Assembly: GCF_006381105.1 (NCBI RefSeq)
Contig: NZ_VDET01000016.1
Span: 1-64,000 of the forward strand
Length of the DNA stretch: 64,000 nucleotides
From: Flavicella sediminum
GTDB taxonomy: Bacteria > Bacteroidota > Bacteroidia > Flavobacteriales > Flavobacteriaceae
Direction of reading: 5' to 3'
In this document: positions 4,265 to 17,701 of the stretch, piece after piece
Layout of the letters: every line of letters begins with the position of its first letter
Position numbering within the stretch: position 1 is the first letter of the stretch
Notes under the pieces: generated by a model
The model's input: the letters and a program-made list of their open reading frames with translations, nothing else
The model's database searches: none
Told to the model about the DNA's origin: nothing
Program-made: the position numbers and the translations under genes

Positions 4265-4861
4265 TTATTTATGTCTTCCTTTCAATTCGTTTTCAATATC
4301 TTTTAAAGTAAAGCCTTTTGCTTGTAATAACATCAAGTAATGAAATAACAAATCTGCAGATTCATACAAGAACAATTCGTCGTTATTATCCATCGCTTCA
4401 ATCACTGTTTCTACAGCTTCTTCCCCTACTTTTTGTGCTACCTTATTGATTCCTTTAGCAAATAAACTCGCCACATACGACTTCTTTGTATCCTTGTTGG
4501 CAACCCTTTCCGTAATTACATCTTCCAAGGTAGAAAAGAAACCATAAGAAGAAACATTTTCCTCTTTCCAACAAGTATCTGCACCAGTATGACACGTTGG
4601 TCCCGCTGGGTTTACTTTGATCAATAAAGAATCATCATCACAATCATTTGCAATGCTTACCAATTCCAAAAAGTTTCCACTTTCTTCACCTTTCGTCCAC
4701 AAACGGTTTTTACTTCGACTAAAAAAAGTGACTTTACCTGTCTCCATTGTTTTGTCATAAGCATCTTGGTTCATATAGCCCAACATCAAAACATTTTTTG
4801 TTGTTGCATCTTGAATAATTGCAGGAACCAATCCGTTGTCTTTAGAAAAATCTATCTTCAT
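4265..4861 (-). CDS. hisIE: HisIE: phosphoribosyl-AMP cyclohydrolase / phosphoribosyl-ATP pyrophosphatase
   Basis: This 198-residue bifunctional enzyme carries out the second and third steps of histidine biosynthesis. The N-terminal HisI domain (about 1-110) shows LGYMNQDA, FFSRSKNRLWTKGEESGN, and the metal-binding DCDDD and CHTGADTCW motifs. The C-terminal HisE domain (about 112-198) shows KKSYVASLFAKGINKVAQKVGEEAVE and the LLFHYLMLL helix typical of the all-alpha pyrophosphatase. The HisI-HisE fusion is the usual arrangement in Bacteroidota. It is the last gene of the his operon, 60 bases after hisF. The spacer to hisF is AT-rich and lacks the AGCTAA repeats found in other his spacers. Confidence 0.95.
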   Translation of the reverse strand: MKIDFSKDNGLVPAIIQDATTKNVLMLGYMNQDAYDKTMETGKVTFFSRSKNRLWTKGEESGNFLELVSIANDCDDDSLLIKVNPAGPTCHTGADTCWKEENVSSYGFFSTLEDVITERVANKDTKKSYVASLFAKGINKVAQKVGEEAVETVIEAMDNNDELFLYESADLLFHYLMLLQAKGFTLKDIENELKGRHK

Positions 4862-4921
4862 TGTGTTTATTTTTGAAAGTGCAAATATAGGATTATCTTA
4901 TATTTATTAGCACAATTGACC

Positions 4922-5677
4922 TTATATTCTTATTGTAATTCCTTGCTTTTTCAATTCCTTTTTTAAATCTTGTATGTCAATTTCTTTGAAATGAAATACA
5001 CTAGCTGCTAATGCTGCATCTGCTTTCCCTTTGATAAAAGTATCTGCAAAATGTTGCATATTTCCAGCACCACCAGAAGCAATGATCGGAATATTTACCA
5101 ATTCCGATAAAATTTCCAAAGCTTCATTGGCAAAACCATCTTTGGTACCGTCGTGGTCCATAGACGTAAACAAGATTTCTCCTGCACCTCTTTCTTCAAC
5201 TTCTTGCGCCCATTCAAATAAATTCAGTTCAGTTGGAACTTTTCCTCCTACCAAATGTACAATCCAATCTCCATCAATTTGTTTGGCATCTATAGCCACT
5301 GTAATACATTGTGCGCCAAATTTAGCAGAAGCATCATTGATCAATTGTGGATTTTTAACTGCTGAAGAATTGATAGAAATTTTATCAGCCCCCGCATGTA
5401 GCAAGTCGTCAATATCTTCAATAGAAGAAATTCCACCCCCAACGGTAAACGGAATATCAATAGCCGCAGCCACACGCATCACCATATCATGTAAGGTTCT
5501 CCGTTTTTCTTCTGTTGCCGAAATATCTAAAAACACCAATTCATCGGCACCCGTATCAGCGTAAATTTTTGCCAATTCCACAGGATCACCAGCATCTCTT
5601 AAATCGACGAAATTTACACCTTTAACGGTTCTTCCGTCTTTTATATCCAAACAAGGAACTATTCTTTTTGTTAACAT
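4922..5677 (-). CDS. hisF: HisF: imidazole glycerol phosphate synthase, cyclase subunit
   Basis: This 251-residue TIM barrel matches the usual HisF length. It starts [20 protein letters not shown] with the catalytic Asp11, and has the second acid in [12 protein letters not shown] near residue 130. Phosphate-binding loops FTVGGGIS and IIASGGAGN are intact. HisF uses ammonia from HisH to close the imidazole ring, giving imidazole glycerol phosphate and AICAR. It follows hisA in the operon after a 65-base repeat-rich spacer. Nothing in the sequence suggests loss of function. Confidence 0.97.
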
Positions 5678-5742
5678 TATTTTTGGCTTTTGGCCATTGG
5701 CTATAGGCTTTTAGCAAAGAGCTAACTGCAAATAGCTAAAAG
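5678..5742. repeat. Repeat-rich hisA-hisF spacer (AGCTAA/TTAGC family)
   Basis: The spacer is made almost entirely of variants of the words GGCTTTTGGC, GGCTTTTAGC, GAGCTAAC and TAGCTAAAAGCTAA. TTTTAGC and GCTAAAA can pair to form a hairpin in the his mRNA. Related words recur in the hisH-hisA, hisB-hisH and hisC-hisB spacers, but not in the other intergenic regions I read. Confidence 0.7.
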
Positions 5743-6468
5743 CTAATTTTTAATTATATAGTTTTCTAATTGTTTCAAACTGATTTTATTTTCATAAATC
5801 GCTTTTCCCACAATAGTACCTTCACAGCCTAAAGCAGCTAATTTTGGTAGCTCATCAAAAGTTGAAATACCACCACTGGCAATTAATTTAACGCCTGGTA
5901 GTTGCTTCAACATTTTTTCATACAAGTCGAAAGAAGGACCTTCTAGCATTCCATCTTTGGCAATATCTGTACAAATAACATAAGAAACACCATCCTTCAT
6001 ATAGGCTTGTACAAAAGGAATCAAATCTTCATCCGATTCTTCTAACCAACCACTAATCGCAATTTTTTCGTTGTTTGCATCAGCACCCAAAATAATTTTA
6101 TCCGCACCAAATTTTGTCAGCCAACTTTTAAAAACTTCAGGATTTTTAACCGCTATACTTCCACCTGTAATTTGTCCTGCTCCAGATTCAAAAGCAATAC
6201 GTAAATCTTCATCTGTTTTCAATCCACCCCCAAAATCAATTTTTAAACTTGTTTTTGTGGCAATTTCTTCCAGTACTTTATGATTGACAATATGACTTGC
6301 TTTAGCACCGTCTAAATCTACTAAATGTAAATGTTCTATTCCGTGTGCTTCATATTGCTTCGCCATTTCTAGAGGATGTTCTCCATAAATTTTTTTCGTG
6401 TTGTAATCTCCTTTTGAAAGACGTACACATTTTCCGTCTATGATATCTATTGCTGGTATTATTCTCAT
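5743..6468 (-). CDS. hisA: HisA: ProFAR isomerase
   Basis: This enzyme isomerises ProFAR to PRFAR by an Amadori rearrangement on a TIM barrel. I chose the ATG at 6468 ([20 protein letters not shown], 241 residues) because it gives the usual HisA length and places catalytic Asp8 in AIDI; an in-frame ATG 33 bases upstream lies in the repeat-rich spacer. Further motifs are [18 protein letters not shown] and LIASGGIS. The second catalytic acid is probably the Asp of CTDIAKDGM. It sits between hisH and hisF on the same strand. Confidence 0.96.
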
Positions 6469-6538
6469 TTTTTTAGCTATTCGCGATTGGCCTTTAAGCA
6501 ATTAGCAAACAGCTAAAAGAAAATAACCAAAGGCTTAT
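6469..6538. repeat. Repeat-rich hisH-hisA spacer
   Basis: The spacer contains TTTAGCT and AGCTAAA, and GGCCTTT and AAAGGC, which are inverted with respect to each other and can fold into an imperfect hairpin. The words match those in the neighbouring his spacers (TTAGCAAACAGCTAAAAG) more than any flanking coding sequence. Confidence 0.65.
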
Positions 6539-7120
6539 TTATAATTCTAGAAAATTCTTTAAAATATGTGTTCCTGTTTTACTGCTTTTTTCAGGGTGAA
6601 ACTGGGTTCCATAAAAATTATCTTTTTGCAAAGCTGTAGCGTATTTTAAACCATAGGTTGTTGTAGCGATTGCTTCTTTACAAAGCGGTGCATAAAAACT
6701 ATGAACCAAATACACAAATTCGTTTTCATTCACTCCAGAAAACAAAGCCGATTTCAAATCAGCAATTTGATTCCATCCTATTTGAGGAACTTTTACCTCA
6801 TTGTCGAAACGAAGGACATCAACATCAAAAATACTCAGACCTGTTGTATTTCCTTCGGCACTAGAATGACACATTAACTGCATGCCCAAACAAATTCCTA
6901 AAACGGGTTGTTTCAAAGAAGGTATTAGTGTATCTAACCCAGATTCCTTCAACATTTTCATGGCACTACTTGCCTCTCCAACACCAGGGAAAATTACTTT
7001 ATCGGCTGCTTTTATTTCTTCAATATCATTACTTAAAACAGCTTCATGTCCTAACCTTTGCACTGCAAATTTTATAGATTGAATATTTCCTGCTCCGTAA
7101 TTTATTATAACTATTTTCAT
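6539..7120 (-). CDS. hisH: HisH: imidazole glycerol phosphate synthase, glutaminase subunit
   Basis: This 193-residue class I glutamine amidotransferase supplies ammonia to HisF. The nucleophile elbow GICLGMQLM carries the catalytic Cys near residue 76. The His-Glu pair lies in TQFHPEKSSKTG near the C-terminus. The N-terminus IINYGAGNIQSI and FPGVGEAS loop are standard. Its length matches the family. It lies between hisB and hisA with repeat-rich spacers on both sides. Confidence 0.96.
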   Translation of the reverse strand: MKIVIINYGAGNIQSIKFAVQRLGHEAVLSNDIEEIKAADKVIFPGVGEASSAMKMLKESGLDTLIPSLKQPVLGICLGMQLMCHSSAEGNTTGLSIFDVDVLRFDNEVKVPQIGWNQIADLKSALFSGVNENEFVYLVHSFYAPLCKEAIATTTYGLKYATALQKDNFYGTQFHPEKSSKTGTHILKNFLEL

Positions 7121-7192: not shown

Positions 7193-8332
7193 TTATAACA
7201 CTCCCTTTGTACTTGGTAAAAACATTTTATTAGCATCGCGTTTTACAGCCATTTTCATTGCTTTTGCAAATGCTTTAAAAATTCCTTCAATTTTATGATG
7301 TTCATTGACGCCTTCCGCCTTAATATTTAAATTACACTTGGCACCATCGGTAAAAGATTTGAATAAGTGGAAAAACATTTCAGTTGGCATATCACCAATC
7401 ATTTCACGTTTGAATTCCGCATCCCATTCTATCCAAGGTCTCCCTCCAAAATCTACCGCTGCTTGCGCCAAACAATCATCCATTGGCAAACAGAAGCCGT
7501 AACGTTCAATTCCCAATTTATTCCCAAGAGTTTTGCTAAATAATTCCCCTAAGGCAATCATGGTATCTTCAATTGTATGGTGTTCATCAACCTCTAAATC
7601 TCCGTCCACTTTTACCGTTAAATCCATAGAACCATGACGTCCTATCTGATCCAACATATGATCAAAAAATTTCACTCCTGTAGAAATATCATTTTGACCC
7701 GAACCATCTAAATTTAATTTGATATAAATTTTAGTTTCATTGGTATTACGAGTAATTTCAGCTGTACGAGATTCTAGTTTTAAAAACTCATAAATAGCTT
7801 TCCATTCTGTAGTTTCGATAGCAATTACGTCGTCCAATTCGGCTCTTTTCACAGACAATTCCTCATCTGCCAAACCATCCACATTGTTAATGTAAATACC
7901 TTTTGCACCAAGATTTTTTGCCAATTCAATATCCGTCAAACGATCTCCAATCACAAAAGAATTTTCTAAATCGTAAGCTTCAGAATTGATGTATTTTGTT
8001 AGCAAACCTGTTCTAGGTTTACGTGTAGGTGCATTTTCGTGAGGAAAGGTTTTATCAATTGCTATATCAGAAAACACAACACCTTCATTTTTAAAAGCTT
8101 CAATCACCTTATTTTGAGCAGGCCAAAAAGTTTCTTCAGGAAAAGAATCCGTACCCAAACCATCTTGGTTGGTAACCATCACCAATTCATAGTCCAATTC
8201 AGCAGCAATTTTACCCATGTATTGAAATACTTTTGGATAAAATTCTAATTTCTCAAGACTATCCAATTGATAATCTATAGGAGGTTCAATGGCTAATGTT
8301 CCATCTCTATCTATAAAAAGTACTTTCTTCAT
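7193..8332 (-). CDS. hisB: HisB: bifunctional histidinol-phosphatase / imidazoleglycerol-phosphate dehydratase
   Basis: This 379-residue fusion covers two steps of histidine synthesis. The N-terminal HAD phosphatase (about 1-165) starts [13 protein letters not shown] with the catalytic DxD and has the later [17 protein letters not shown] motif. The C-terminal dehydratase (about 185-379) shows the manganese-binding [21 protein letters not shown] and [12 protein letters not shown] motifs, plus DFGGRPW. The same fusion occurs in enterobacteria and many Bacteroidota. It is flanked by hisC upstream and hisH downstream. Both halves look intact. Confidence 0.96.
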
Positions 8333-8340
8333 TTTTTTAT

Positions 8341-8368
8341 GCTTTTGGCTACTAGCTTTTGGCTACTA
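8341..8368. repeat. Tandem 14-bp repeat in the hisC-hisB spacer
   Basis: GCTTTTGGCTACTA occurs twice head to tail (8341-8354 and 8355-8368), followed by GCAT. It is the cleanest example of the word family found in the other his spacers and fills most of the 44-base gap between hisC and hisB. Confidence 0.85.
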
Positions 8369-8376
8369 GCATAATT

Positions 8377-9417
8377 CTAAATCGTCTTTAACGCTTCTAT
8401 CAATTTTTCATTCTCTATGGAAGTCCCTACCGTTAATCTTAGGGTATTTTCACACAAAGCTTGTGTCGTTCTGTTTCTAATTACGATTCCTTTTTCTAAT
8501 AACTGATTGTAGCGTTTATTGGCATCATCAACTTTTACCAAAACAAAGTTTGAATCAGATGGGTAAATTTTAGAAATATAATTTACCGTTTGCAAGGCTG
8601 CGATCAATTTGGTTCTTTCTGCTAAAATATTTTCAATTTCAACTTGAACTTCATCAAATGCTAACAAACGCTGTTTTGCTCTTTGTTGTGTTAATTCATT
8701 GACATTGTAAGGAGGCTTAATTCTGTTTAAAACTTCTATAATTTCAACAGATGCATAACAAATCCCCAAACGAATACCTGCCATACCAAATGCTTTTGAC
8801 AAGGTTTGCGTAATGATTAAATTTGGGTATTTCACTAAATTTCTCAACCAACTTTCTTTTGCAGAAAAATCAACATAGGCTTCATCAATAACAACAATTC
8901 CGTGAAAGCCTTCTACAATTGCTTTTATTTTTTCTTCTGAAAAAGCATTTCCTGAAGGGTTGTTTGGAGAACACAAAAATAAAATTTTTGAATGTGCATC
9001 TGCAACGGCTAATGTTTCTTCTACTCGAATATCAAAATCTTCAGATAATAATACTTCTTTGGTCGCTATGTTATTTAAGCCTGACAAGACATTGTACATT
9101 CCGTAGGTAGGTGGCAAAAAGATAACATTGTCTTCTTTAGGCTCACAAAAAGCTCTAAAAATTAAATCTAAAACTTCATCGCTACCATTTCCTAATAAAA
9201 TTTGGTTGGTCGGAATACCTTTTAAATTGCTCAACAAATCTTTGACACTTTGTTGTCTTGGATCTGGGTAACGATTGACGCCATTTTGAAATGGATTTTC
9301 ATTAGCATCTAAGAAAACCATATCTGCCGTAGCCTCTTCAAACTCATCACGAGCAGAAGAATACGCTTTCAACTTGGCGATATTTTCTCTTACTATTTTT
9401 TGTATATCAAATGACAT
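8377..9417 (-). CDS. hisC: HisC: histidinol-phosphate aminotransferase
   Basis: This 346-residue PLP enzyme of fold type I transaminates imidazole acetol phosphate with glutamate. Visible motifs are FLDANENPF and NRYPDPRQ at the N-terminus, GNGSDEVLDLI, FLCSPNNPSGN, IDEAYVDF, and the Schiff-base lysine in TQTLSKAFGMAGIRLG. Length and motif order are standard. It follows hisD by 13 bases and precedes hisB in the operon. Confidence 0.95.
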   Translation of the reverse strand: MSFDIQKIVRENIAKLKAYSSARDEFEEATADMVFLDANENPFQNGVNRYPDPRQQSVKDLLSNLKGIPTNQILLGNGSDEVLDLIFRAFCEPKEDNVIFLPPTYGMYNVLSGLNNIATKEVLLSEDFDIRVEETLAVADAHSKILFLCSPNNPSGNAFSEEKIKAIVEGFHGIVVIDEAYVDFSAKESWLRNLVKYPNLIITQTLSKAFGMAGIRLGICYASVEIIEVLNRIKPPYNVNELTQQRAKQRLLAFDEVQVEIENILAERTKLIAALQTVNYISKIYPSDSNFVLVKVDDANKRYNQLLEKGIVIRNRTTQALCENTLRLTVGTSIENEKLIEALKTI

Positions 9418-9430
9418 TTTTGTCTTGATT

Positions 9431-10717
9431 TTAATTTTCTAAATTTTTCAAACGTAAAGTCACTGCATTTTTATGAGCTTCTAAACCTTCCGCTTCCGCC
9501 ATCAATTCAATGGCAGGTCCAATAAATTGAATTCCTTCTTCTGATATTTTTTGAAAGGTAATCTTCTTTGTAAAGGCATCCATATTTACACCGCTATACA
9601 TACGTGCATAGGCGTTTGTAGGTAAAGTATGGTTGGTTCCTGACGCATAATCACCAGCGCTTTCTGGCGTATACGGTCCTATAAAAACAGACCCCGCACT
9701 CATAATTCTATCCAAGTACAAGTCTTCATTGACAACATTTAAAATTAAATGCTCAGGAGCATAGTCATTGATAAAGTCAATTTGATCTTTTAAGTTTTCA
9801 ATTAAAATAAACTGAGAATTTTCTATAGCGCTTGTCGCCATTTCCTTCCTTGGCAATACTTCCAACTGAGCAGCTACTTCTTTCTGAATAGCTTCTAAAG
9901 ATTCCACCGTATTTGCCAAACAAATTACCTGACTATCATGACCGTGTTCTGCTTGCGATAACAAATCAGAAGCGACAAATTCTGGCAAAGCCAATTGATC
10001 TGCAACTACCATTAATTCTGAAGGACCTGCAGGCATATCAATAGCCACCCCCTGTGTTAAAGCAAACTGTTTTGCCCCTGTTACAAACTGGTTACCAGGT
10101 CCAAATATTTTATAAACACTAGGTACAGATTCCGTTCCATATGTCATGGCCGCAATGGCCTGCACCCCACCTAATTTAAAAATAGTGGTAACACCGACCA
10201 ATTGAGCAGCATACAAAATTGCTGGGTTTATTGTACCGTCAGCACTTGGAGGTGTGCACAAAATAATTTCTTTACACCCTGCTAGTTTCGCCGGAATTCC
10301 CAACATTAATATGGTTGAAAACAAAGGAGCTGTCCCCCCCGGAATATACAAACCTACTTTTTCAATAGGCCGCATTTCCTGCCAACATTCTACTCCCGGA
10401 CTTGTTTTTACAACTTTTTTAGAAATAAATTGAGAAGCATGAAAAATTTTGATATTCTCTTTGGCCAAATCCATGGCAGCTTTCAAATCTTCAGAAACCT
10501 GAGCCACCCCTTTTAGGGTTTCTTCTTCAGTTACTTGCAAATTTTGAAGCTTGACTTTATCAAATTTCAAGGTATACTCTTTCAAAGCTTGATCTCCGTT
10601 CATTTGAACGTTTTCAAAAACTTCTGAAATAATTTTCCCTAAATCAGCTGCTTTTTTTGCGGGTCTTTGTGTTAAAGATGCCCAATTTTCTCTTGCAGGA
10701 TTTTTTACTATTTCCAT
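9431..10717 (-). CDS. hisD: HisD: histidinol dehydrogenase
   Basis: This 428-residue zinc enzyme oxidises histidinol to histidine with two NAD+. The sequence has the expected GLYIPGGTAPLFSTILM loop, FGPGNQFVTGAKQ, DMPAGPSELMVVAD, SQAEHGHDSQVI (zinc and substrate histidines) and NDYAPEHLIL, with the C-terminal HTLPTNAYARMYSGV segment. Length matches the family. It is the second structural gene, separated from hisG by 76 bases of word-repeat spacer. Confidence 0.97.
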   Translation of the reverse strand: MEIVKNPARENWASLTQRPAKKAADLGKIISEVFENVQMNGDQALKEYTLKFDKVKLQNLQVTEEETLKGVAQVSEDLKAAMDLAKENIKIFHASQFISKKVVKTSPGVECWQEMRPIEKVGLYIPGGTAPLFSTILMLGIPAKLAGCKEIILCTPPSADGTINPAILYAAQLVGVTTIFKLGGVQAIAAMTYGTESVPSVYKIFGPGNQFVTGAKQFALTQGVAIDMPAGPSELMVVADQLALPEFVASDLLSQAEHGHDSQVICLANTVESLEAIQKEVAAQLEVLPRKEMATSAIENSQFILIENLKDQIDFINDYAPEHLILNVVNEDLYLDRIMSAGSVFIGPYTPESAGDYASGTNHTLPTNAYARMYSGVNMDAFTKKITFQKISEEGIQFIGPAIELMAEAEGLEAHKNAVTLRLKNLEN

Positions 10718-10793: not shown

Positions 10794-11654
10794 TTATAAA
10801 ACCATTTTTTCAATAGGCACAACTAAAATTCCTTCTGCTCCTCTAGCCTTCAATTCTTCAATAATGTCCCAAAACTTACTTTTTCCTAAAACAACCGTAT
10901 GAATTGAGCTCCATCCTTTTTCTGCCAATGGCAAAACGGTAGGACTTCTCATTCCTGGTAATATATCGATAATTGATTCAACCTTGTCGTTTGGTGCGTT
11001 TAACAAAATATATTTAGAATTTTGTCCTCTTAAAACGGATTGAATTCTAAATTGAATGGTATCTAAAATAGCTTTTTTGTCAGCAGACAAATTAGGACCC
11101 GCCGTTAAAACAGCTTCACTAACCGACATTTGAACAGCTTCTTTTAAACCATTTTTAAACAAGGTACTTCCACTAGAAACGATGTCACAAATAGCATCTG
11201 CCAAACCAATATTCGGAGCAATTTCTACAGAACCATTGATAATGTGAAGCTCTGCGGTAATTCCTTGTTCTTTTAAATATTTTTCTACCGTATTTGGGTA
11301 CGACGTTGCAATACGTTTTCCGTTAAGATCTTGAATACCTGTGTACTCAAATTCTTTTGGTACGGCTAAAGAAACGCGACATTTAGAAAATCCTAAACGC
11401 TCAATAATTTCTAATTCTTCTCCTTTTTCAACCAAAGTATTTTCTCCAAGAATGGCAACATCTACAACTCCATCTCTTAAATATTGAGGAATGTCTCCGT
11501 TTCTTAAATACAATACTTCCACTGGAAAGTTACGAGCTGAAGCCTTTAATTGGTCTTTACCATTGTCGATTGATATTCCACAATCTTTTAATAATTTCAA
11601 GGAATCTTCGTTTAATCTTCCTGATTTCTGAATGGCGATTTTTAATTTTGTCAT
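10794..11654 (-). CDS. hisG: HisG: ATP phosphoribosyltransferase, long form
   Basis: HisG commits PRPP and ATP to histidine synthesis. I place the start at 11654 (MTKLKIAIQKSGRL, 286 residues), the normal N-terminus; a longer in-frame version would begin inside the attenuator hairpin and is unlikely. The catalytic domain includes LRNGDIPQYLRDGVVDVAILG and the PRPP loop CDIVSSGSTLFKNGL. The C-terminal part (about 215-286), with LPGMRSPTVLPLA and the VVPIEKMVL end, is the regulatory HisG_C domain, so this is the long, feedback-inhibited form that needs no HisZ. It is the first structural gene behind the His leader. Confidence 0.95.
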   Translation of the reverse strand: MTKLKIAIQKSGRLNEDSLKLLKDCGISIDNGKDQLKASARNFPVEVLYLRNGDIPQYLRDGVVDVAILGENTLVEKGEELEIIERLGFSKCRVSLAVPKEFEYTGIQDLNGKRIATSYPNTVEKYLKEQGITAELHIINGSVEIAPNIGLADAICDIVSSGSTLFKNGLKEAVQMSVSEAVLTAGPNLSADKKAILDTIQFRIQSVLRGQNSKYILLNAPNDKVESIIDILPGMRSPTVLPLAEKGWSSIHTVVLGKSKFWDIIEELKARGAEGILVVPIEKMVL

Positions 11655-11702
11655 TTTGTTTTTAATTGTGTTTAAGCAATTGTAAATGATTTGATTTATA
11701 CG

Positions 11703-11737
11703 AAAAAAACCCATTTGAATTGCTCAAACGGGTTTTT
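11703..11737 (-). terminator. his attenuator terminator
   Basis: On the minus strand a stem formed by AAACCCGTTTGA and TCAAATGGGTTT with a five-base loop is followed by a run of seven U. It lies between the leader peptide stop and hisG, about 49 bases before the hisG ATG. The 5' arm GTTTGAG (11723-11729) is complementary to CTCAAAC (11787-11793) inside the leader ORF, just after the His codons, which provides an antiterminator alternative. Confidence 0.88.
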
Positions 11738-11749
11738 GAAAATATGTTT

Positions 11750-11814
11750 ATAAATTACATAACATTCCTAGCTCGATTGATCACAAGTTTGAGAATGATG
11801 ATGATGTAATTTAT
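11750..11814 (-). promoter_or_regulatory. Leader inverted repeat (attenuator regions 1 and 2)
   Basis: Plus-strand 11750-11760 (ATAAATTACAT) and 11804-11814 (ATGTAATTTAT) are a perfect 11-base inverted repeat. One arm covers the leader codons just before and including the first His codon; the other lies 7 bases after the leader stop. A ribosome paused at the His codons would cover one arm, so the pairing can respond to translation. Confidence 0.7.
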
Positions 11815-11824
11815 TTGTATACAT
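11768..11824 (-). CDS. hisL: Histidine operon leader peptide, four consecutive His codons
   Basis: An 18-codon ORF upstream of hisG reads MYTNKLHHHHSQTCDQSS and ends in TAG. Four CAT codons in a row (11795-11806) in so short an ORF, placed between a TAnnTTTG promoter and a rho-independent terminator in front of the his genes, is the classical arrangement of transcription attenuation by a leader peptide. Low charged tRNA-His would stall the ribosome at the run and favour the antiterminator. The peptide itself probably has no other function. It is too short to be found by length-based gene callers. Confidence 0.9.
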   Translation of the reverse strand: MYTNKLHHHHSQTCDQSS

Positions 11825-11843
11825 GTCTATTTATTTAACGTCG

Positions 11844-11875
11844 CAAATATAGTAATTTTATTAAAAATAGTGCAA
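11844..11875 (-). promoter_or_regulatory. his operon promoter
   Basis: On the minus strand TATATTTG (11844-11851) matches the Bacteroidota -7 consensus TAnnTTTG, with TTG (11873-11875) 21 bases further upstream as the -33 element. Transcription would begin near 11837, about a dozen bases before the leader ATG at 11824. Confidence 0.7.
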
Positions 11876-11928
11876 GTCCTTTTTTGTTTTTTTAAGGATT
11901 TTTTTTCTTCCTTAAAATACCTATTTCT

Positions 11929-11962
11929 AAAAAAAGCGGTTTCTTTCAAAACCGCTTTTTTA
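11929..11962 (-). terminator. Terminator of the propeller-cupredoxin gene
   Basis: AAAAAGCGGTTT and AAACCGCTTTTT form a strong stem with a short loop, flanked by A and T runs. It lies 19 bases after the stop of the 650-residue gene and separates that operon from the his leader. Confidence 0.88.
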
Positions 11963-11980: not shown

Positions 11981-13933
11981 TTATTTAACAATTAATTTAG
12001 CTCTCATACTTGCATGCCCTGGAAAAGAACACAATACCCAATAGGTTCCCGGTTTTTCAGGAGCTTTAAAGAAAATTCTTTCTGAAGTTTCTGGTCCAAC
12101 AATTCCTGTATGATACAAAACCAAATCTGTATCTGGCACATAATTCAAGTCGGCACCATCCAATCCTAACTCCAGCGCCATATTTCCTACTTTATCTGCT
12201 GTAGATTTTCCGGGTTTTGTAATAACTAAATTATGCAACATATCGTCATTATTATTCAAGGTTAACTGAATTTTTTCTCCTTTATTCACCACCAATTCTT
12301 TAAAATCAAATTTCAAACCTGGAACCGTTCCTACAGAAATTTCTCTGTCGTATTTCCCGTTCCAATCGGTAGGCATTTTAGTAACACGTTTTGGTTGCAC
12401 TATTTTTTTGTTCGACTTTTTCATTTTCATCGACATTGATTTCAATTTCCCTCCCGGTACTTCATTCAAAGTATAATAACCGGTATCATGCAACAAGGAT
12501 TCTCCTGACTTAGCTTTGACACCCGCAGCAGTCAACTGATGAATAAACCCTAATTTCATTCCGTGCACAGTTAATTTAGCAGAAAGCCCGTCTTTAGCAA
12601 CTTCTACTTTATGAATCATGGCTTTTTCTTGATCTACAATTGGACTGCCATAAGTAACATGGTAGGTATAATTGAAAGTTGCCATTTTATAGGACGCTGG
12701 ATCCGAAGCTGTTTTTTGATCTACAGGTTTTGTAAACTCAACTATAAATCCATCATTTTGCGCCTTAATTGCTTTAAGTTCAAAAGGTGTTTTTCCGGTC
12801 CAAACCAAACGCTGTAAACCAAAATCTTTACCTCCCGAAGATCTCCATCCTCTTGCGGTCATACCAACAAACATACTATGATCACTACCCCAAATCATTC
12901 TTAATATTCCTGAAGAAAAACCTTCTCTAAAAGGAAAGGAAGCTCCTTGATACACACCATTAATTTTCTCCATAAAAACACGCATAATTTTGCTATGTCC
13001 TTGATCACCAACAAAAATTTGGTTTTCAAAAGGTCCGAATTTAGCACCTGTTGTGTCGTACAACATATCAGAAGTAGAAATTCCCAAAATAGTATGAGGA
13101 AACCAGATAGCGGGTGCCTTTAATTCAGGAATTTTTTTCGCGTACTCATATAAACTCAGCCCAGAAAATTCTTCAATATCTGAAGGTTTTAATTTTAAAG
13201 GTGACTTCAGATCATCCGTCCATTTTAAACCCGATGGATGTCCTGCAAAATCTCCTTCTTCTAAATGAGTCATTCTACCAGAACCAACCCAGTCTCCTTG
13301 GTTTTCCGTATAAAAAATAGCTCCTTCCGGACTCACAGCATAACCGGCTGGAGAACGCAAACCTGTTGCAATTGGAAACATTTCGCCTTGAGGTGTAATT
13401 TTCAACAACCAACCTCTCCATTTTGCCAAACTTTTACCCCCACCTTTCCAAGATAGATTTAAGTTTACATACATATCACCATTTTTGTCCAGCTTAGGTC
13501 CGTAAGAATATTCATGGTAATTTCCCGACAAAGGCCAAGAATAAATTGTTTTGTACAAATCTGCTTCCCCATCATTATTCGTATCTTCAAGTCTTGTCAG
13601 CTCCCCTCGTTGCGACAAATAGAATCCATTGTCCTTATAAGCCAAACCTAACGCCTCATGCATTCCATATGCAAATCTATTATAAACAGGTTTTTGACTG
13701 TACGGTTTGTCAATCAGCCAAACTTCACCTCTTCTTGTAGAAACCCCTAATTTATCTTTATCTGTTAGCGCCAATCCACCGACTTCCAAAACCACTCCTT
13801 TAGGAATAGGCACATCAATAATTTTATAAAATTCTGATTCTTTTTTTGAAATAGCGGTATTTTTCTGTGCAAATCCCATTTGATTTATCAATAAAATACA
13901 CAGTACTGCAATTGTTCTATTTATACTTTTCAT
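11981..13933 (-). CDS. Secreted beta-propeller protein with C-terminal type 1 copper (cupredoxin) domain
   Basis: This 650-residue protein has a Sec signal peptide (residues 1-22, ending GFAQ). Residues 30 to about 390 form a propeller of the sorbosone/glucose-dehydrogenase type (GLALTDKDKLGVSTRRGEVW, RLEDTNNDGEAD, ATGLRSPAGYAVSPEGAIFYTENQGDWVG, VGDQGHSKIMRV). After an Ig-like and lysine-rich linker, the last 110 residues form a cupredoxin with NDDMLHNLV and a C-terminal CSFPGHASM, giving the ligand set His, Cys635, His640 and Met643 of a blue copper site. The copper domain may act as an electron acceptor for a propeller-bound oxidation, which is inference. It lies 15 bases after the DUF1080 lipoprotein gene, probably in one operon. 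Confidence 0.8.
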   Translation of the reverse strand: MKSINRTIAVLCILLINQMGFAQKNTAISKKESEFYKIIDVPIPKGVVLEVGGLALTDKDKLGVSTRRGEVWLIDKPYSQKPVYNRFAYGMHEALGLAYKDNGFYLSQRGELTRLEDTNNDGEADLYKTIYSWPLSGNYHEYSYGPKLDKNGDMYVNLNLSWKGGGKSLAKWRGWLLKITPQGEMFPIATGLRSPAGYAVSPEGAIFYTENQGDWVGSGRMTHLEEGDFAGHPSGLKWTDDLKSPLKLKPSDIEEFSGLSLYEYAKKIPELKAPAIWFPHTILGISTSDMLYDTTGAKFGPFENQIFVGDQGHSKIMRVFMEKINGVYQGASFPFREGFSSGILRMIWGSDHSMFVGMTARGWRSSGGKDFGLQRLVWTGKTPFELKAIKAQNDGFIVEFTKPVDQKTASDPASYKMATFNYTYHVTYGSPIVDQEKAMIHKVEVAKDGLSAKLTVHGMKLGFIHQLTAAGVKAKSGESLLHDTGYYTLNEVPGGKLKSMSMKMKKSNKKIVQPKRVTKMPTDWNGKYDREISVGTVPGLKFDFKELVVNKGEKIQLTLNNNDDMLHNLVITKPGKSTADKVGNMALELGLDGADLNYVPDTDLVLYHTGIVGPETSERIFFKAPEKPGTYWVLCSFPGHASMRAKLIVK

Positions 13934-13948: not shown

Positions 13949-15844
13949 TTACCAAATGATGCTATACGTGATTTTTTGAATTCCCGCTGGTATGTTAACG
14001 ATCAACTCTTGCAAACCACCTTGTGTACGAATGATTGGTTTTAAATTTTCATTCCCTGAAAAATCAATAAAAAAGCTCTCGTTATTGATCAAATAACTTC
14101 CATCAGGCAGTAGCGTTATTTTTTCTCCAGCGCCTAATTTATGCCACACATCTTCCGTTGAGTTTATGCCAACAGTACGCACAAATCCTCTAGACTCCGT
14201 TGGGCAAGAAAAACGATTTGTAAAAGTAGCACCGTTCAATTCATTGGTGAATTCAGGATTTCCATTTGCATCTAAAGCATATCCTTTTTGAACAAAATTC
14301 ATTGCATCAGTCACTTTAGAAGGCCAAGCAGCTTTTTCATTTTCTAAATATGCGAAATCTAAAGTACCATGCATCAATACCAAAGCACCTTCTGGAACGC
14401 CTAATTGATGCTCTCCTCTCGAATGCCACATATGTGTTGCATTTAAGAAACCTCCACTCCAAACTTGCAATAAAGAACCCGTTTCCAAATCATAAGAATA
14501 ATTTAATTTATTTGGCAATCCCACAGAAATACAATGGGTTCTTTTAGTTTCTTTATGATTTAAAAAACTACGTTGAACCACTGTTTTATTTGTAGGTTCA
14601 ACCACTAAAAAACGCATTGTTTTTTTCTTTTTAGCTTTTGTTTCTTCTTTGTATTGAACAGAAAAACGTTGCATCTTAGGCCCTTCAACAAACAATTCAA
14701 AACCTCTTTTCCAAGAAACATTCTTATTATAAATTAAAGTATAAGGCAAAGTTCCAGCTGTTAAATTAGCCTTTGAATAAACAACATTGTCCATTTTAGA
14801 ATTTCCGTTCACATTTAAAATAGTATCTTTTCCGATGACCAAAGTAGTACCGCCATTCACTGCCAAATCAAACAAATAATTACCCGATGTTGGAATCACT
14901 AAATTTCCAGAATACTTGATTATTTTTTGATCGTTGTGAGCGACAATCTCCGTTGGTAAAATATAATCCACTTCTTTTTCTTCAATAGCTGGCTTTTTAA
15001 GCAAGGCAGTTACTTTGTTATCCCTTTTAGGATTGTCATATACCTTGGCTGTACTTTTAGAAACCTGAATTCTTTGCGTGTCGTATACTTTATACTTGAT
15101 ATTTTTTAAAGCCACAGGTCCATGATCTCCTTGAATCATTAAAGGCCCTAAAGCTTTTTCGTCTGCAAATTTAGCCGCTCGTGTTGGTCCAGTAACTTCT
15201 ACCCATTGATGAATCAATACCCCATTCAATCGGACTTCTTCAAACCATGCATTTTCAGTTTTATTTCCTTCGGCATCAAACTTTGGTGCATGAAAAATAA
15301 TTTTAAAATGCTGCCATAAACCTGGCGCTTTCGCTGCATTTTCGTCTGCCGCATGACCTTCATAGCCTTGTTTTCCTTTTTCTTTGGTTTTATCCCAGCG
15401 CTGGTATATTCCACCCATATCACTGTACTTTATTTTCTTTGCCGCCCAACTATCAAATAACTGTACTTCATAGCGACCTTGAAAGTAAATACCTGAATTC
15501 GATTTTACAGGCATCATCACATCCAATTCAATTTCAATATCACCATGCTGAAATTTAGACACTAAATGCCCTCTTTTTTTTGCACCGGGTATATTGACCA
15601 AAACTCCTGTTCCTTTTTCACCTACAATTGTTTTTTCTTTAGACCTGTCTACATACGCGTCTCCGCAAATAGTCCAATTTCCTGTCACTGGAGCAAAAGC
15701 CCTCATATCTTTCAAATCGATATGGGTAAACGGTAATGTAGTTTGTTTTTTACTTTTCGCTTTTTTTTCTTGACTTGGCTTTGTTTCACCACCACAAGAA
15801 AATAGCACTGTGCTTATTAAAAACACAAAGAACTTATTTTTCAT
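13949..15844 (-). CDS. DUF1080 (3-keto-glycoside hydrolase/lyase family) lipoprotein with PA14-like region
   Basis: This 631-residue protein has a lipobox Cys at residue 17 (LFSC) and a Lys/Gln-rich linker. Residues 50-260 match the DUF1080 concanavalin-like fold (GDAYVDRSKEKTIVGEKGTGVLVN, SNSGIYFQGRYEVQLFDSW, GGIYQRW, GLWQHFKIIFHAPKFD, GPLMIQGDHGPVALKNI). Residues 290-400 resemble a PA14-like carbohydrate-binding module (YSGNLVIPTSGNYLFDLAVNGG). The C-terminal 220 residues are a beta-rich domain I do not recognise. DUF1080 proteins act on 3-keto sugars or related glycosides; the substrate here is unknown. It is co-directional with the propeller-cupredoxin gene, 15 bases apart, so an oxidation-plus-cleavage partnership is plausible. 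Confidence 0.75.
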   Translation of the reverse strand: MKNKFFVFLISTVLFSCGGETKPSQEKKAKSKKQTTLPFTHIDLKDMRAFAPVTGNWTICGDAYVDRSKEKTIVGEKGTGVLVNIPGAKKRGHLVSKFQHGDIEIELDVMMPVKSNSGIYFQGRYEVQLFDSWAAKKIKYSDMGGIYQRWDKTKEKGKQGYEGHAADENAAKAPGLWQHFKIIFHAPKFDAEGNKTENAWFEEVRLNGVLIHQWVEVTGPTRAAKFADEKALGPLMIQGDHGPVALKNIKYKVYDTQRIQVSKSTAKVYDNPKRDNKVTALLKKPAIEEKEVDYILPTEIVAHNDQKIIKYSGNLVIPTSGNYLFDLAVNGGTTLVIGKDTILNVNGNSKMDNVVYSKANLTAGTLPYTLIYNKNVSWKRGFELFVEGPKMQRFSVQYKEETKAKKKKTMRFLVVEPTNKTVVQRSFLNHKETKRTHCISVGLPNKLNYSYDLETGSLLQVWSGGFLNATHMWHSRGEHQLGVPEGALVLMHGTLDFAYLENEKAAWPSKVTDAMNFVQKGYALDANGNPEFTNELNGATFTNRFSCPTESRGFVRTVGINSTEDVWHKLGAGEKITLLPDGSYLINNESFFIDFSGNENLKPIIRTQGGLQELIVNIPAGIQKITYSIIW

Positions 15845-15880
15845 ATACTTATAGATTTAGTTTTAATTTTTAGTTCAAGA

Positions 15881-15888
15881 CAAATGTA
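15881..15888 (-). promoter_or_regulatory. Candidate -7 box for the DUF1080/propeller operon
   Basis: TACATTTG on the minus strand matches TAnnTTTG, 36 bases before the ATG at 15844. No -33 TTG at canonical spacing was seen. Confidence 0.45.
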
Positions 15889-15981
15889 TGCGCAATTAAC
15901 AAGAGTAAATAACTCATATGTTTCTTTTTATCAAACAACTGGCTTATTTTACAAATATTCATGGATTAAAACTAGTCAATT

Positions 15982-16026
15982 AAAAAAAACGCAGCATTTA
16001 ATAAAATTCTATTAAATACTGCGTTT
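15982..16026 (-). terminator. Sulfatase terminator
   Basis: A long inverted repeat (AACGCAGCATTTAATA / TATTAAATACTGCGTT, one U-G pair on the minus strand) is followed by a U-run in the minus direction. It lies about 100 bases after the sulfatase stop and separates sulfatase from the DUF1080 unit. Confidence 0.85.
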
Positions 16027-16123
16027 TTTACAACTATTTTATAACTTGTAGTTGCGATACAATTTCAATAAATTTTTCAACCTACAAAAACCAACATGCC
16101 AACTATACAATTCTTAAAACATG

Positions 16124-17701
16124 TTAATCTTTGGTGACCATACTTCCCCACCAATTATTTTTAGGATCAAAATCATCTTCTAAGAAACGCATTCTTTGTT
16201 TCTCCAAAGATTTTATCAATCTTTTATTTTTAGCCGTTCTAATTTTCACTGCTACTTTTTCATCATACAATTCATCTTTCTTTGGAAAATTAGCTCCTAC
16301 ACTTTTTAACCAATTCATTAAATTTGCATGAAGCTCTTTTGTTTTTTCAGGACGCGCAGCTGCTATATTATTTTGTTCTGATTCATCCTCTTTTAAATTG
16401 TACAATTCATTGGAATCACTTTCGTAATAATGAATCAACTTCCAATCACCTAAACGAACAATAGAAGAAGGCTCTCCTCCTTGATTTCCATAATGAGGAT
16501 AATGCCAATACAACGGACGCTCTTCTAAAGTCTTTCCTTCTAAAATAGGTTTTAAACTAACACCATCTATATGTGCTTCAGGTTTTAAATCCGCCCCTAC
16601 CAAATCTAAAATAGTCGGATAAAAGTCGGTACCCATTACAGGGAAATTATTTTTAGTTGCCTTATGCTGCAACCAAGGAACATTGATAAAAAAAGGCTCT
16701 CTAATTCCGCCTTCCCATTGATATCCTTTCCCGCCTCTTAAGGGTAGATTTGACGTAGAAAAAGCATCTCCGGAAGCAACTCCTCCATTATCTGAAGTAA
16801 ACACAACAATGGTGTTTTTATCCAAACCTAATTCTTTTAATGAATTTAAAACACGACCCACAGCTGCATCCATATCATCAACTAAACCAGCATAAATAGG
16901 ATTGTCTTGCACCTCTCTAATAGGTAAAACACGTTCTTGACGGTACCCTTTTTCTGCCACACCATTTGCCTTTGCTTTTTGTTGGTATTTACTCCACTTA
17001 TCTTTTGACGTTTGAATAGGTCCGTGAACCGCGTAAAAAGAAAGATAGGCAAAAAACGGTTTGTCTAAATTTGCTTTCATAAAATCAACCGTTTCATTAG
17101 CCAATCTCATAGAAAGATTTTCTCCGTCTACTTTGTTTTTTAATTTAGGATTTCCAAAAGGTGAAAAATAGCCACCTGGAGGACTTCCACGATGATGACC
17201 TCCTTTGTTTACATCGAACCCATGATCTTCTGGATACGAACCTTCATCACCTAAATGCCATTTACCTGCAAAAAAAGTAGCATAGCCTTGTTCTTTCATT
17301 GCTTCCGGCAAGGTTACATCTTCCAATGCTAAATTACGTTTGTACTCTGCTGGCAACAATTTATCATAACGTTTGCGTTCTCTCCATTCTTCACCTGCTT
17401 TTGCCCCAATCCAATCGGTAATACCATGTCGGGCCGTAAACTGACCATTCATAATACTAGCTCTTGATGGACTACACACGCGACAAGCAGCATAACCTTG
17501 AGTAAACACCATACTTTGATTTGCCAAAGCATCAATATTTGGAGTTTCGTAAAACTTACTACCTGAAAAGCTCGTGTCATTTGCCCCGTAGTCATCTACC
17601 AAAATAAAAACTACATTGGGCTTTTTCGCTGTTTCTTTTTTTTCTGTTGTACATGATAACGCACAAAAAAACAAACCTAAAATCGATATAAATATCCTCA
17701 T
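16124..17701 (-). CDS. S1-type sulfatase lipoprotein
   Basis: This 525-residue protein has a lipobox Cys at residue 17 (CALSC), so it is probably anchored in the cell envelope. The formylglycine signature CSPSR is at 76-80; Cys76 would be oxidised to the catalytic aldehyde by a formylglycine-generating or anaerobic maturase not present in the window. Metal-binding motifs NVVFILVDDYGAND, GKWHLG and VFTSDNGG are intact, so it should be an active sulfate ester hydrolase of the arylsulfatase A superfamily. Substrate cannot be read; the family acts mostly on sulfated carbohydrates. It has its own terminator, so linkage to the downstream sugar-related operon is only positional. Confidence 0.9.
   Translation of the reverse strand: MRIFISILGLFFCALSCTTEKKETAKKPNVVFILVDDYGANDTSFSGSKFYETPNIDALANQSMVFTQGYAACRVCSPSRASIMNGQFTARHGITDWIGAKAGEEWRERKRYDKLLPAEYKRNLALEDVTLPEAMKEQGYATFFAGKWHLGDEGSYPEDHGFDVNKGGHHRGSPPGGYFSPFGNPKLKNKVDGENLSMRLANETVDFMKANLDKPFFAYLSFYAVHGPIQTSKDKWSKYQQKAKANGVAEKGYRQERVLPIREVQDNPIYAGLVDDMDAAVGRVLNSLKELGLDKNTIVVFTSDNGGVASGDAFSTSNLPLRGGKGYQWEGGIREPFFINVPWLQHKATKNNFPVMGTDFYPTILDLVGADLKPEAHIDGVSLKPILEGKTLEERPLYWHYPHYGNQGGEPSSIVRLGDWKLIHYYESDSNELYNLKEDESEQNNIAAARPEKTKELHANLMNWLKSVGANFPKKDELYDEKVAVKIRTAKNKRLIKSLEKQRMRFLEDDFDPKNNWWGSMVTKD

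Follow-up and report, generated by a model that had tools for sequence, protein, structure and literature searches.

We identified a leader directly upstream of hisG on the minus strand of the Flavicella sediminum window (the whole stretch of 64,000 nucleotides that was analysed) that is very probably a ribosome-mediated, leader-peptide transcription attenuator of the his operon, judging from sequence conservation and modelled folding. A leader-peptide attenuator is strongly supported here by conservation, helix covariation and constrained folding, in agreement with a first-pass annotation of this DNA which had claimed translation-dependent his attenuation without a Shine-Dalgarno (SD) sequence; an SD-like sequence was present ahead of only 3 of 123 one-per-genus leaders. 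In addition, we detected a fifth RNA strand ahead of hisG, which almost certainly pairs under selection with the 5' arm and loop of the terminator.

The his locus and its leader

The features of the locus, with the basis of each assignment in brackets, are:

11873-11875, minus strand: TTG of the -33 element, 21-nt spacer to TATATTTG (sequence)
11844-11851, minus strand: -7 promoter element of the Bacteroidota type, TATATTTG (sequence)
11768-11824, minus strand: leader ORF MYTNKLHHHHSQTCDQSS, 18 codons, ATG at 11824, stop TAG at 11770-11768 (sequence and conservation)
11804-11814, minus strand: strand 1, ATAAATTACAT, covering His1 and the codons ahead of it (sequence, folding, covariation)
11795-11806, minus strand: four CAT (His) codons, the putative sensing codons (sequence)
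11787-11793, minus strand: CTCAAAC, the strand singled out by the first-pass annotation (complement of GTTTGAG)
11772-11780, minus strand: strand 2, conserved predicted antiterminator arm over the last leader codons, TCAATCGAG in the window and TCARGCGAG in the family (alignment, covariation, folding)
11750-11760, minus strand: strand 1', ATGTAATTTAT, 3' of the leader stop (sequence, folding, covariation)
11724-11737, minus strand: strand 3, terminator 5' arm (folding, covariation)
11719-11723, minus strand: terminator loop GCAAT, included in the target of strand 5 (folding, loop-pairing test)
11705-11718, minus strand: strand 4, terminator 3' arm (folding, covariation)
11703-11709, minus strand: U-tract, seven T (sequence)
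11670-11681, minus strand: strand 5, AATTGCTTAAAC, 15 nt upstream of the hisG ATG (complementarity, covariation)
10794-11654, minus strand: hisG (NCBIfam; conserved start 11654)
7193-10717, minus strand: hisD, hisC and hisB (NCBIfam)
4265-7120, minus strand: rest of the his operon, with a GATase (hisH-like), two His_biosynth (hisA/hisF-like) and a PRA-CH/PRA-PH (hisIE-like) protein (domain matches)

The order on the minus strand is thus leader, terminator, hisG, hisD, hisC, hisB and then four further his-type ORFs. The longest hisG ORF (306 aa) starts at 11714, within the 3' arm of the terminator, whereas the start kept in relatives (11654) gives a protein of 286 aa; the wrong start may be picked by gene callers.

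All elements named in the first-pass annotation were found again at these positions: the promoter, the 18-codon ORF with four consecutive CAT codons, the perfect 11-base inverted repeat formed by strands 1 and 1', the seven-base complement between CTCAAAC and GTTTGAG in the terminator 5' arm, and the terminator with seven U before hisG. Strand 5 (11681-11670) was missed, lying outside an element whose end had been placed at 11703. The leader peptide is MYTNKL-HHHH-SQTCDQSS, and its ORF is the sole ATG-initiated ORF of 10-35 codons with HHHH in the window (6 such ORFs in total were found over 40 random windows). The 1:1' helix encloses strand 2. The terminator, AAAAACCCGTTTGA-GCAAT-TCAAATGGGTTTTT (11737-11705, with seven T running to 11703), was absent from the output of a generic terminator scan and was shown by RNAfold and conservation. 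Folding of the element on the minus strand gave z = -4.1, with 0 of 200 shuffles as good. TATATTTG fits the TAnnTTTG motif, which we take to be the Bacteroidota -7 promoter element; this motif was present within 60 nt upstream of the leader in 46 of 123 loci, compared to 3.1 expected.

At 11930-11961, a separate hairpin of 13 pairs, followed by a T-rich tail and scored on the plus strand, separates the his promoter from the 3' end of the cupredoxin-domain gene upstream (11981-13933) and is perhaps the terminator of that gene. Further upstream of this gene and the his operon, positions 13949-17701 code for a 3-keto-disaccharide hydrolase/PA14 protein and a sulfatase.

Conservation of the his leader

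HisG was found in 131 of 159 genomes of the family and in all six genomes of the genus. The upstream regions compared came from 129 genera, from five additional congeners and from 80 named loci (214 loci in all). Some loci in the analysis represent one genome twice, e.g., L136 and L003, or L317 and L088. With a filter requiring a short ORF with at least 3 His in eight codons, a His-rich short ORF was detected upstream of hisG in 207 of the 214 loci, nearly all from Flavobacteriaceae. A covariance model built from 43 sequences detected the element in six of the seven loci that failed this filter (only its 3' half in L055); the model did not find it in L209, whose sequence is incomplete. In L062, L085, L106, L117 and L133, all missed by the filter, the element was present with one or two neighbouring or single His codons. 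Among family genomes, the model matched 92 of 100 at E <= 0.01, the weakest of these matches being at background level. Weak matches away from hisG (about 33 bits) were rejected as palindrome background because matches on the wrong strand at hisG score similarly.

The one-per-genus set was derived from the 131 family genomes with hisG by leaving out G116 (contig edge) and the congener G001; of the resulting 129 loci, 123 passed the leader filter and 121 of these passed the terminator script, that is, had an intrinsic terminator between leader and hisG. The geometry was nearly fixed. Six codons precede the first His in 108 of 123 loci, the distance from the His run to the stop is eight codons in 100 of 123, and the median distance from the leader stop to the terminator is 33 nt (123 loci). 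SD-like sequences were as rare ahead of hisG (2 of 123 loci) as ahead of the leader. Comparison of the hisG upstream regions of relatives revealed conservation of both the His run and the stems. It is extremely improbable that the window holds a chance His-rich ORF before a simple terminator, with no attenuator: conservation, covariation and the fixed run-to-stop spacing all argue against it, as do the clues of attenuation published for amino acid operons of the family in a section of PMC9723704. The attenuator provides a mapped, family-wide model with near-fixed geometry for ribosome-sensed regulation in which the leader and hisG starts lack an SD sequence.

Among 48 further loci, a His-rich short ORF preceded hisG in 42, nine of these from the same family (three of the nine being genomes already counted). 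The non-family part of this set comes from other Flavobacteriales families and from other orders and classes of the phylum. In the latter (L348-L364), 14 of 17 loci had a His-rich short ORF before hisG, with different terminators; some His-rich ORFs outside the order may be due to chance. An unusual locus was observed in genome G031 (L407, 3122-2843, minus strand), where an intact his leader and terminator (MNNSFLHHHHILFHALAR) precede a 41-codon stub. The first part of the stub is HisG-like by eye, a HisG search gave no match in this genome, and the locus looks like a decaying his operon.

Alternative helices and the antiterminator strand

We aligned 94 of the 121 loci (distinct, with an ATG start and a length of 135-190) and scored four helices. 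Pairs were formed in 98.0% of cells for 3:4, 96.0% for 2:3, 89.9% for 3:5 and 73.3% for 1:1', which is the weakest supported of the four; by this measure each helix was above all 500 shuffles. Helices 3:4, 2:3 (4 pairs) and 1:1' each showed pairs changed on both sides. These changes are less specific for 1:1', which gave 57 in register and 59 when slid by one column; in addition, 61 of 500 shuffles reached its number of pairs with both-sided change, 22 of 500 reached that of 3:5, and in the count of further pair types 109 of 500 reached the value of 2:3. Because the structures entering these counts had been drawn up on a single row (L075), they have an advantage over slid registers, a bias avoided by the test on held-out loop bases described below.

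Constrained folding suggested how these helices could be used. For nascent RNA extending to the loop, the mean probability of 2:3 pairing over 95 loci was 0.39 in the absence of a ribosome, rose to 0.92 when a ribosome was stalled on the His codons and dropped to 0.03 when the ribosome had reached the stop codon, as a his attenuator would require. In these models, stalled and terminating ribosomes expose different strands, although less clearly so in the window. Once strand 4 was present, p(2:3) fell below 0.01 and 3:4 won in every ribosome state; therefore, the antitermination decision must be kinetic, as is assumed for attenuator decisions in general. In the proposed mechanism, a shortage of histidine would cause the ribosome to stall on the CAT codons, covering strand 1 and leaving strand 2 free, so that 2:3 would pair before strand 4 is synthesized and RNA polymerase would read on. 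With ample histidine, the ribosome at the stop codon would cover strand 2, 3:4 would form and transcription would end. Without translation, 1:1' would enclose strand 2 and 3:4 would likewise form.

The predicted antiterminator strand, on the evidence of the alignment and the folding models, is the conserved TCARGCGAG over the last leader codons and not CTCAAAC next to the His codons, to which the first-pass annotation had assigned this role. A role for CTCAAAC, directly 3' of the His codons, is suggested by its seven perfect pairs in the window, where strand 2 has a mismatch and the two duplexes with strand 3 are about equal (-5.4 kcal/mol for CTCAAAC and -5.3 kcal/mol for strand 2), and by its modelled pairing with strand 3 at 0.39 when His1 is in the A site. 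However, CTCAAAC is missing at its place in five congeners (L003-L007), and the duplex of strand 2 with strand 3 is the stronger one in 114 of 121 loci; its median is -7.9 kcal/mol, whereas the 12 nt directly 3' of the His run give -2.1 kcal/mol (121 loci). Moreover, CTCAAAC pairs with strand 3 at 0.00 when His2 to His4 are in the A site, being covered, and its pairing is back at 0.39 once the ribosome has reached the stop codon; since it is equally free with the ribosome at the stop and with His1 in the A site, it does not discriminate. Under a wider definition of the pairing, the window gave 0.29 stalled and 0.31 at the stop. Strand 2 of the window behaved as expected of an antiterminator arm: its pairing with strand 3 was 0.02 for His1 in the A site, 0.26-0.40 for His2 to His4 and 0.00 at the stop codon. 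We therefore consider CTCAAAC very unlikely to be the antiterminator; in the window it is probably species-specific or a chance occurrence. In the folding models, it would blur the switch at the stop codon in F. sediminum only, and the folding of the window thus counts against a sharp switch in this organism and not in the family.

A fifth strand ahead of hisG

In most loci, a sequence such as GATTTACTCAAAC lies ahead of hisG and is complementary to the 5' arm and loop of the terminator (GTTTGAGTAAATC). In the window, the complement of strand 5 is GTTTGAGCAATT (11729-11718), which comprises part of strand 3, the loop and one base of strand 4. For spacers of 15-90 nt (110 loci), the mean duplex energy was -9.95 kcal/mol for own spacers, -5.05 kcal/mol for shuffled spacers and -7.40 kcal/mol for spacers swapped between loci. 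The own duplex beat 95% of shuffles in 77 of 110 loci (33 did not), and beat 95% of swaps in only 37 of 110; swapped spacers score strongly because the CTCAAAC core is common to the loci. In the alignment, the paired cells of 3:5 (see above) compare with 80.8% after shuffling and 22-48% in slid registers, and its covariation score (0.242) was the highest among the four helices.

The cleanest test set the register on arm bases alone and scored the next four bases, most of which belong to the loop and are unpaired in the terminator hairpin. These held-out bases paired in 306 of 396 cells (99 of 108 loci used), compared to 199 after row shuffling (sd 9, maximum 237 of 5000) and 31-41% in slid registers. 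On a hisG tree of 92 loci, selected for having the 3:5 duplex, 30 branch changes at the four loop-test positions altered both sides with the pair kept. Strand 5 was present in all six loci of the genus (p at most 0.014), within which a compensating change was seen: AATT faces AATT in L002, and AACT faces AGTT in L004.

Strand 5 was also detected in other Flavobacteriales families, at p <= 0.05 in 11 of 17 loci (five of these 11, L320, L323, L331, L332 and L333, represent one genus); 5 loci were without it, and 1 had too short a spacer. In L338, the terminator sequence is unrelated, yet strand 5 matches it save for one base. The strand in L336 appeared complementary by eye, failed the test (p 0.78) and was counted as negative. 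Outside Flavobacteriales, strand 5 was sought in five of the 17 loci and found in none of the 4 that were testable, the fifth having too short a spacer.

Possible roles of strand 5

Strand 5 is made after the U-tract and therefore cannot act on that termination event. Its distance to the hisG AUG is 12-17 nt in 50 of 67 loci (as counted by the program; one more if counted from the last paired base), and in the alignment consensus it lies just upstream of the A-rich stretch that precedes this AUG. Because of this position, and because the genes are mostly without an SD sequence, we infer a role in hisG translation, to which we would give at best an even chance. If so, strand 5 would most likely lower hisG translation when histidine is ample, serving as a second brake on leaky transcripts. 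In the read-through RNA it would compete for strand 3 and the terminator loop, so that the strand deciding termination would also set the openness of the hisG start. The Flavobacteriales his attenuator would then be a two-level device, in which one RNA strand, held or released by the leader ribosome, decides both transcription and, via strand 5, hisG translation. We put this forward tentatively, as a reading that falls somewhat short of an even chance; such a device would perhaps act via a loop:strand 5 pseudoknot and might, in addition, involve terminated leader RNA acting in trans.

The folding of the read-through RNA complicates the picture: 3:5 covaries, yet it is disfavoured in nested folding, with p(3:4) of 0.94-0.96 and p(3:5) of 0.02-0.05 in all three ribosome states. 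Formation of 3:5 therefore needs kinetics, a pseudoknot or another partner; a pseudoknot between the loop and strand 5, co-transcriptional folding, or pairing at the time when strand 2 leaves strand 3 could be relevant.

Other roles can be considered for the same pairing. The attenuator may be a plain one, with strand 5 affecting decay or processing of the read-through mRNA by dissolving the terminator hairpin, a somewhat unlikely explanation which agrees with the synthesis of strand 5 after the U-tract and with the fact that 3:5 would replace 3:4 in the mRNA. The spacing data bear on it in both directions. The distance from strand 5 to the AUG (sd 7.6, middle half 14-17) has a spread little below that of the distance from the U-tract to strand 5 (sd 8.4, middle half 15-21), owing to outliers, so the latter is only slightly more variable; on the other hand, the placement of 50 of 67 strands 5 at 12-17 nt before the AUG would be unneeded for a decay element. 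A distinctly less probable explanation is that terminated leader RNA acts in trans as a small RNA, its loop pairing with strand 5 of hisG mRNAs and repressing them when histidine is ample. The loop matching strand 5 is exposed in the terminated RNA, covariation cannot separate cis from trans pairing, and the trp attenuator RNA of S. meliloti, rnTrpL, is a precedent for an attenuator RNA acting in trans. However, strand 3 is present in every read-through mRNA itself and should prevail over a copy offered in trans, and a search of the own genome for trans targets with the pattern ATTGCTYAAAC revealed no enrichment (12 occurrences compared to 9 for the reversed control pattern). Returning to a role in hisG translation, peptide-leader attenuators would, if strand 5 exerts such control, be more than transcription switches, and the covariation indicates which bases to alter for probing strand 5.

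Leaders of other amino acid operons

The leader filter was reapplied with other residues upstream of trpE, pheA, ilvD and homoserine dehydrogenase genes. A Trp-rich leader with a terminator was found upstream of trpE in 16 of 19 loci and a Phe/Tyr-rich leader with a terminator upstream of pheA in 19 of 20, the own genome being included in both sets of positives; a branched-chain-rich leader preceded ilvD in 8 of 19 loci, the own genome not among them. The filter found no residue-rich leader at 30 homoserine dehydrogenase loci. In the own genome, the trpE leader (L231) is MKFNTKNIWWWNSLNS and the pheA leader (L257) contains TSFFFFFFYFYKRSETFCVL, each with a terminator; these sequences suggest that F. 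sediminum uses attenuation for several amino acids. Given the counts for trp, phe and branched-chain leaders, leader attenuation seems to be a general habit of these bacteria. Strand 5 was observed at p <= 0.05 in only 1 of 20 testable trp/phe leaders (L255); 33 had been tried, of which 2 were without gene or terminator and 11 had too short a spacer. One locus of another family (L226, about 102-360) carries two tandem Trp leaders with two terminators before trpE (MQKINTIWWWQSKL and MLNNKINNWWWPVLTQYAGQSCYNII).

Comparison with known systems

A conserved structured element before hisG without an Rfam match, present in other genera as well, is described for Flavobacterium psychrophilum in a section of PMC9723704, and the same section suggests leader-peptide attenuation for amino acid operons. 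The F. psychrophilum element occupies the same place in the same family as the one in the window; in that section it is not explicitly called an attenuator, and neither an anatomy nor strand 5 is given. Given the hisG element and the clues of attenuation in this source, the attenuator itself belongs to a type already known from this family and is not wholly new. It is the only source we found in the open-access literature that bears directly on his or other leader-peptide attenuators in Bacteroidota. Short ORFs reminiscent of leader peptides are mentioned for Bacteroides thetaiotaomicron in part of PMC7366714; his leader attenuation is not treated in the relevant parts of PMC4833913 and PMC1262725. 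We found no description of strand 5 in the open-access literature, and earlier reports may exist.

The window element resembles enterobacterial hisL (RF00514, His_leader) in having a His run in a short leader ORF, antiterminator and terminator helices that exclude each other, and a terminator before hisG. It differs in having four rather than seven His codons, no SD sequence, a strand 2 nested in the 1:1' hairpin, and strand 5 before hisG. The RF00514 match in the window (29.2 bits, E 0.0057) is below the gathering score of 49, which was reached in none of 20 related loci. At the gathering level, no Rfam family matched in the window, and no T-box was among the nine Rfam matches up to E 5 in 11600-11950. 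According to a review (PMC3896937), control of the his operon at the level of translation, after mRNA synthesis, has not been reported for E. coli or S. typhimurium. For the his 5' UTR of Corynebacterium glutamicum, the same source describes alternative hairpins proposed for his control, one of which hides the ribosome site, a likeness to the arrangement considered here. In contrast, this 5' UTR is described there as having no His leader ORF, and a T-box or another tRNA mechanism is proposed.

To our knowledge, no peptide-leader attenuator with a strand like strand 5 is known. In the TRAP-controlled trp leader of Bacillus subtilis, one leader acts both on termination and on translation of the first gene in the read-through RNA; that system is protein-mediated, unlike the leader peptide of the his attenuator.
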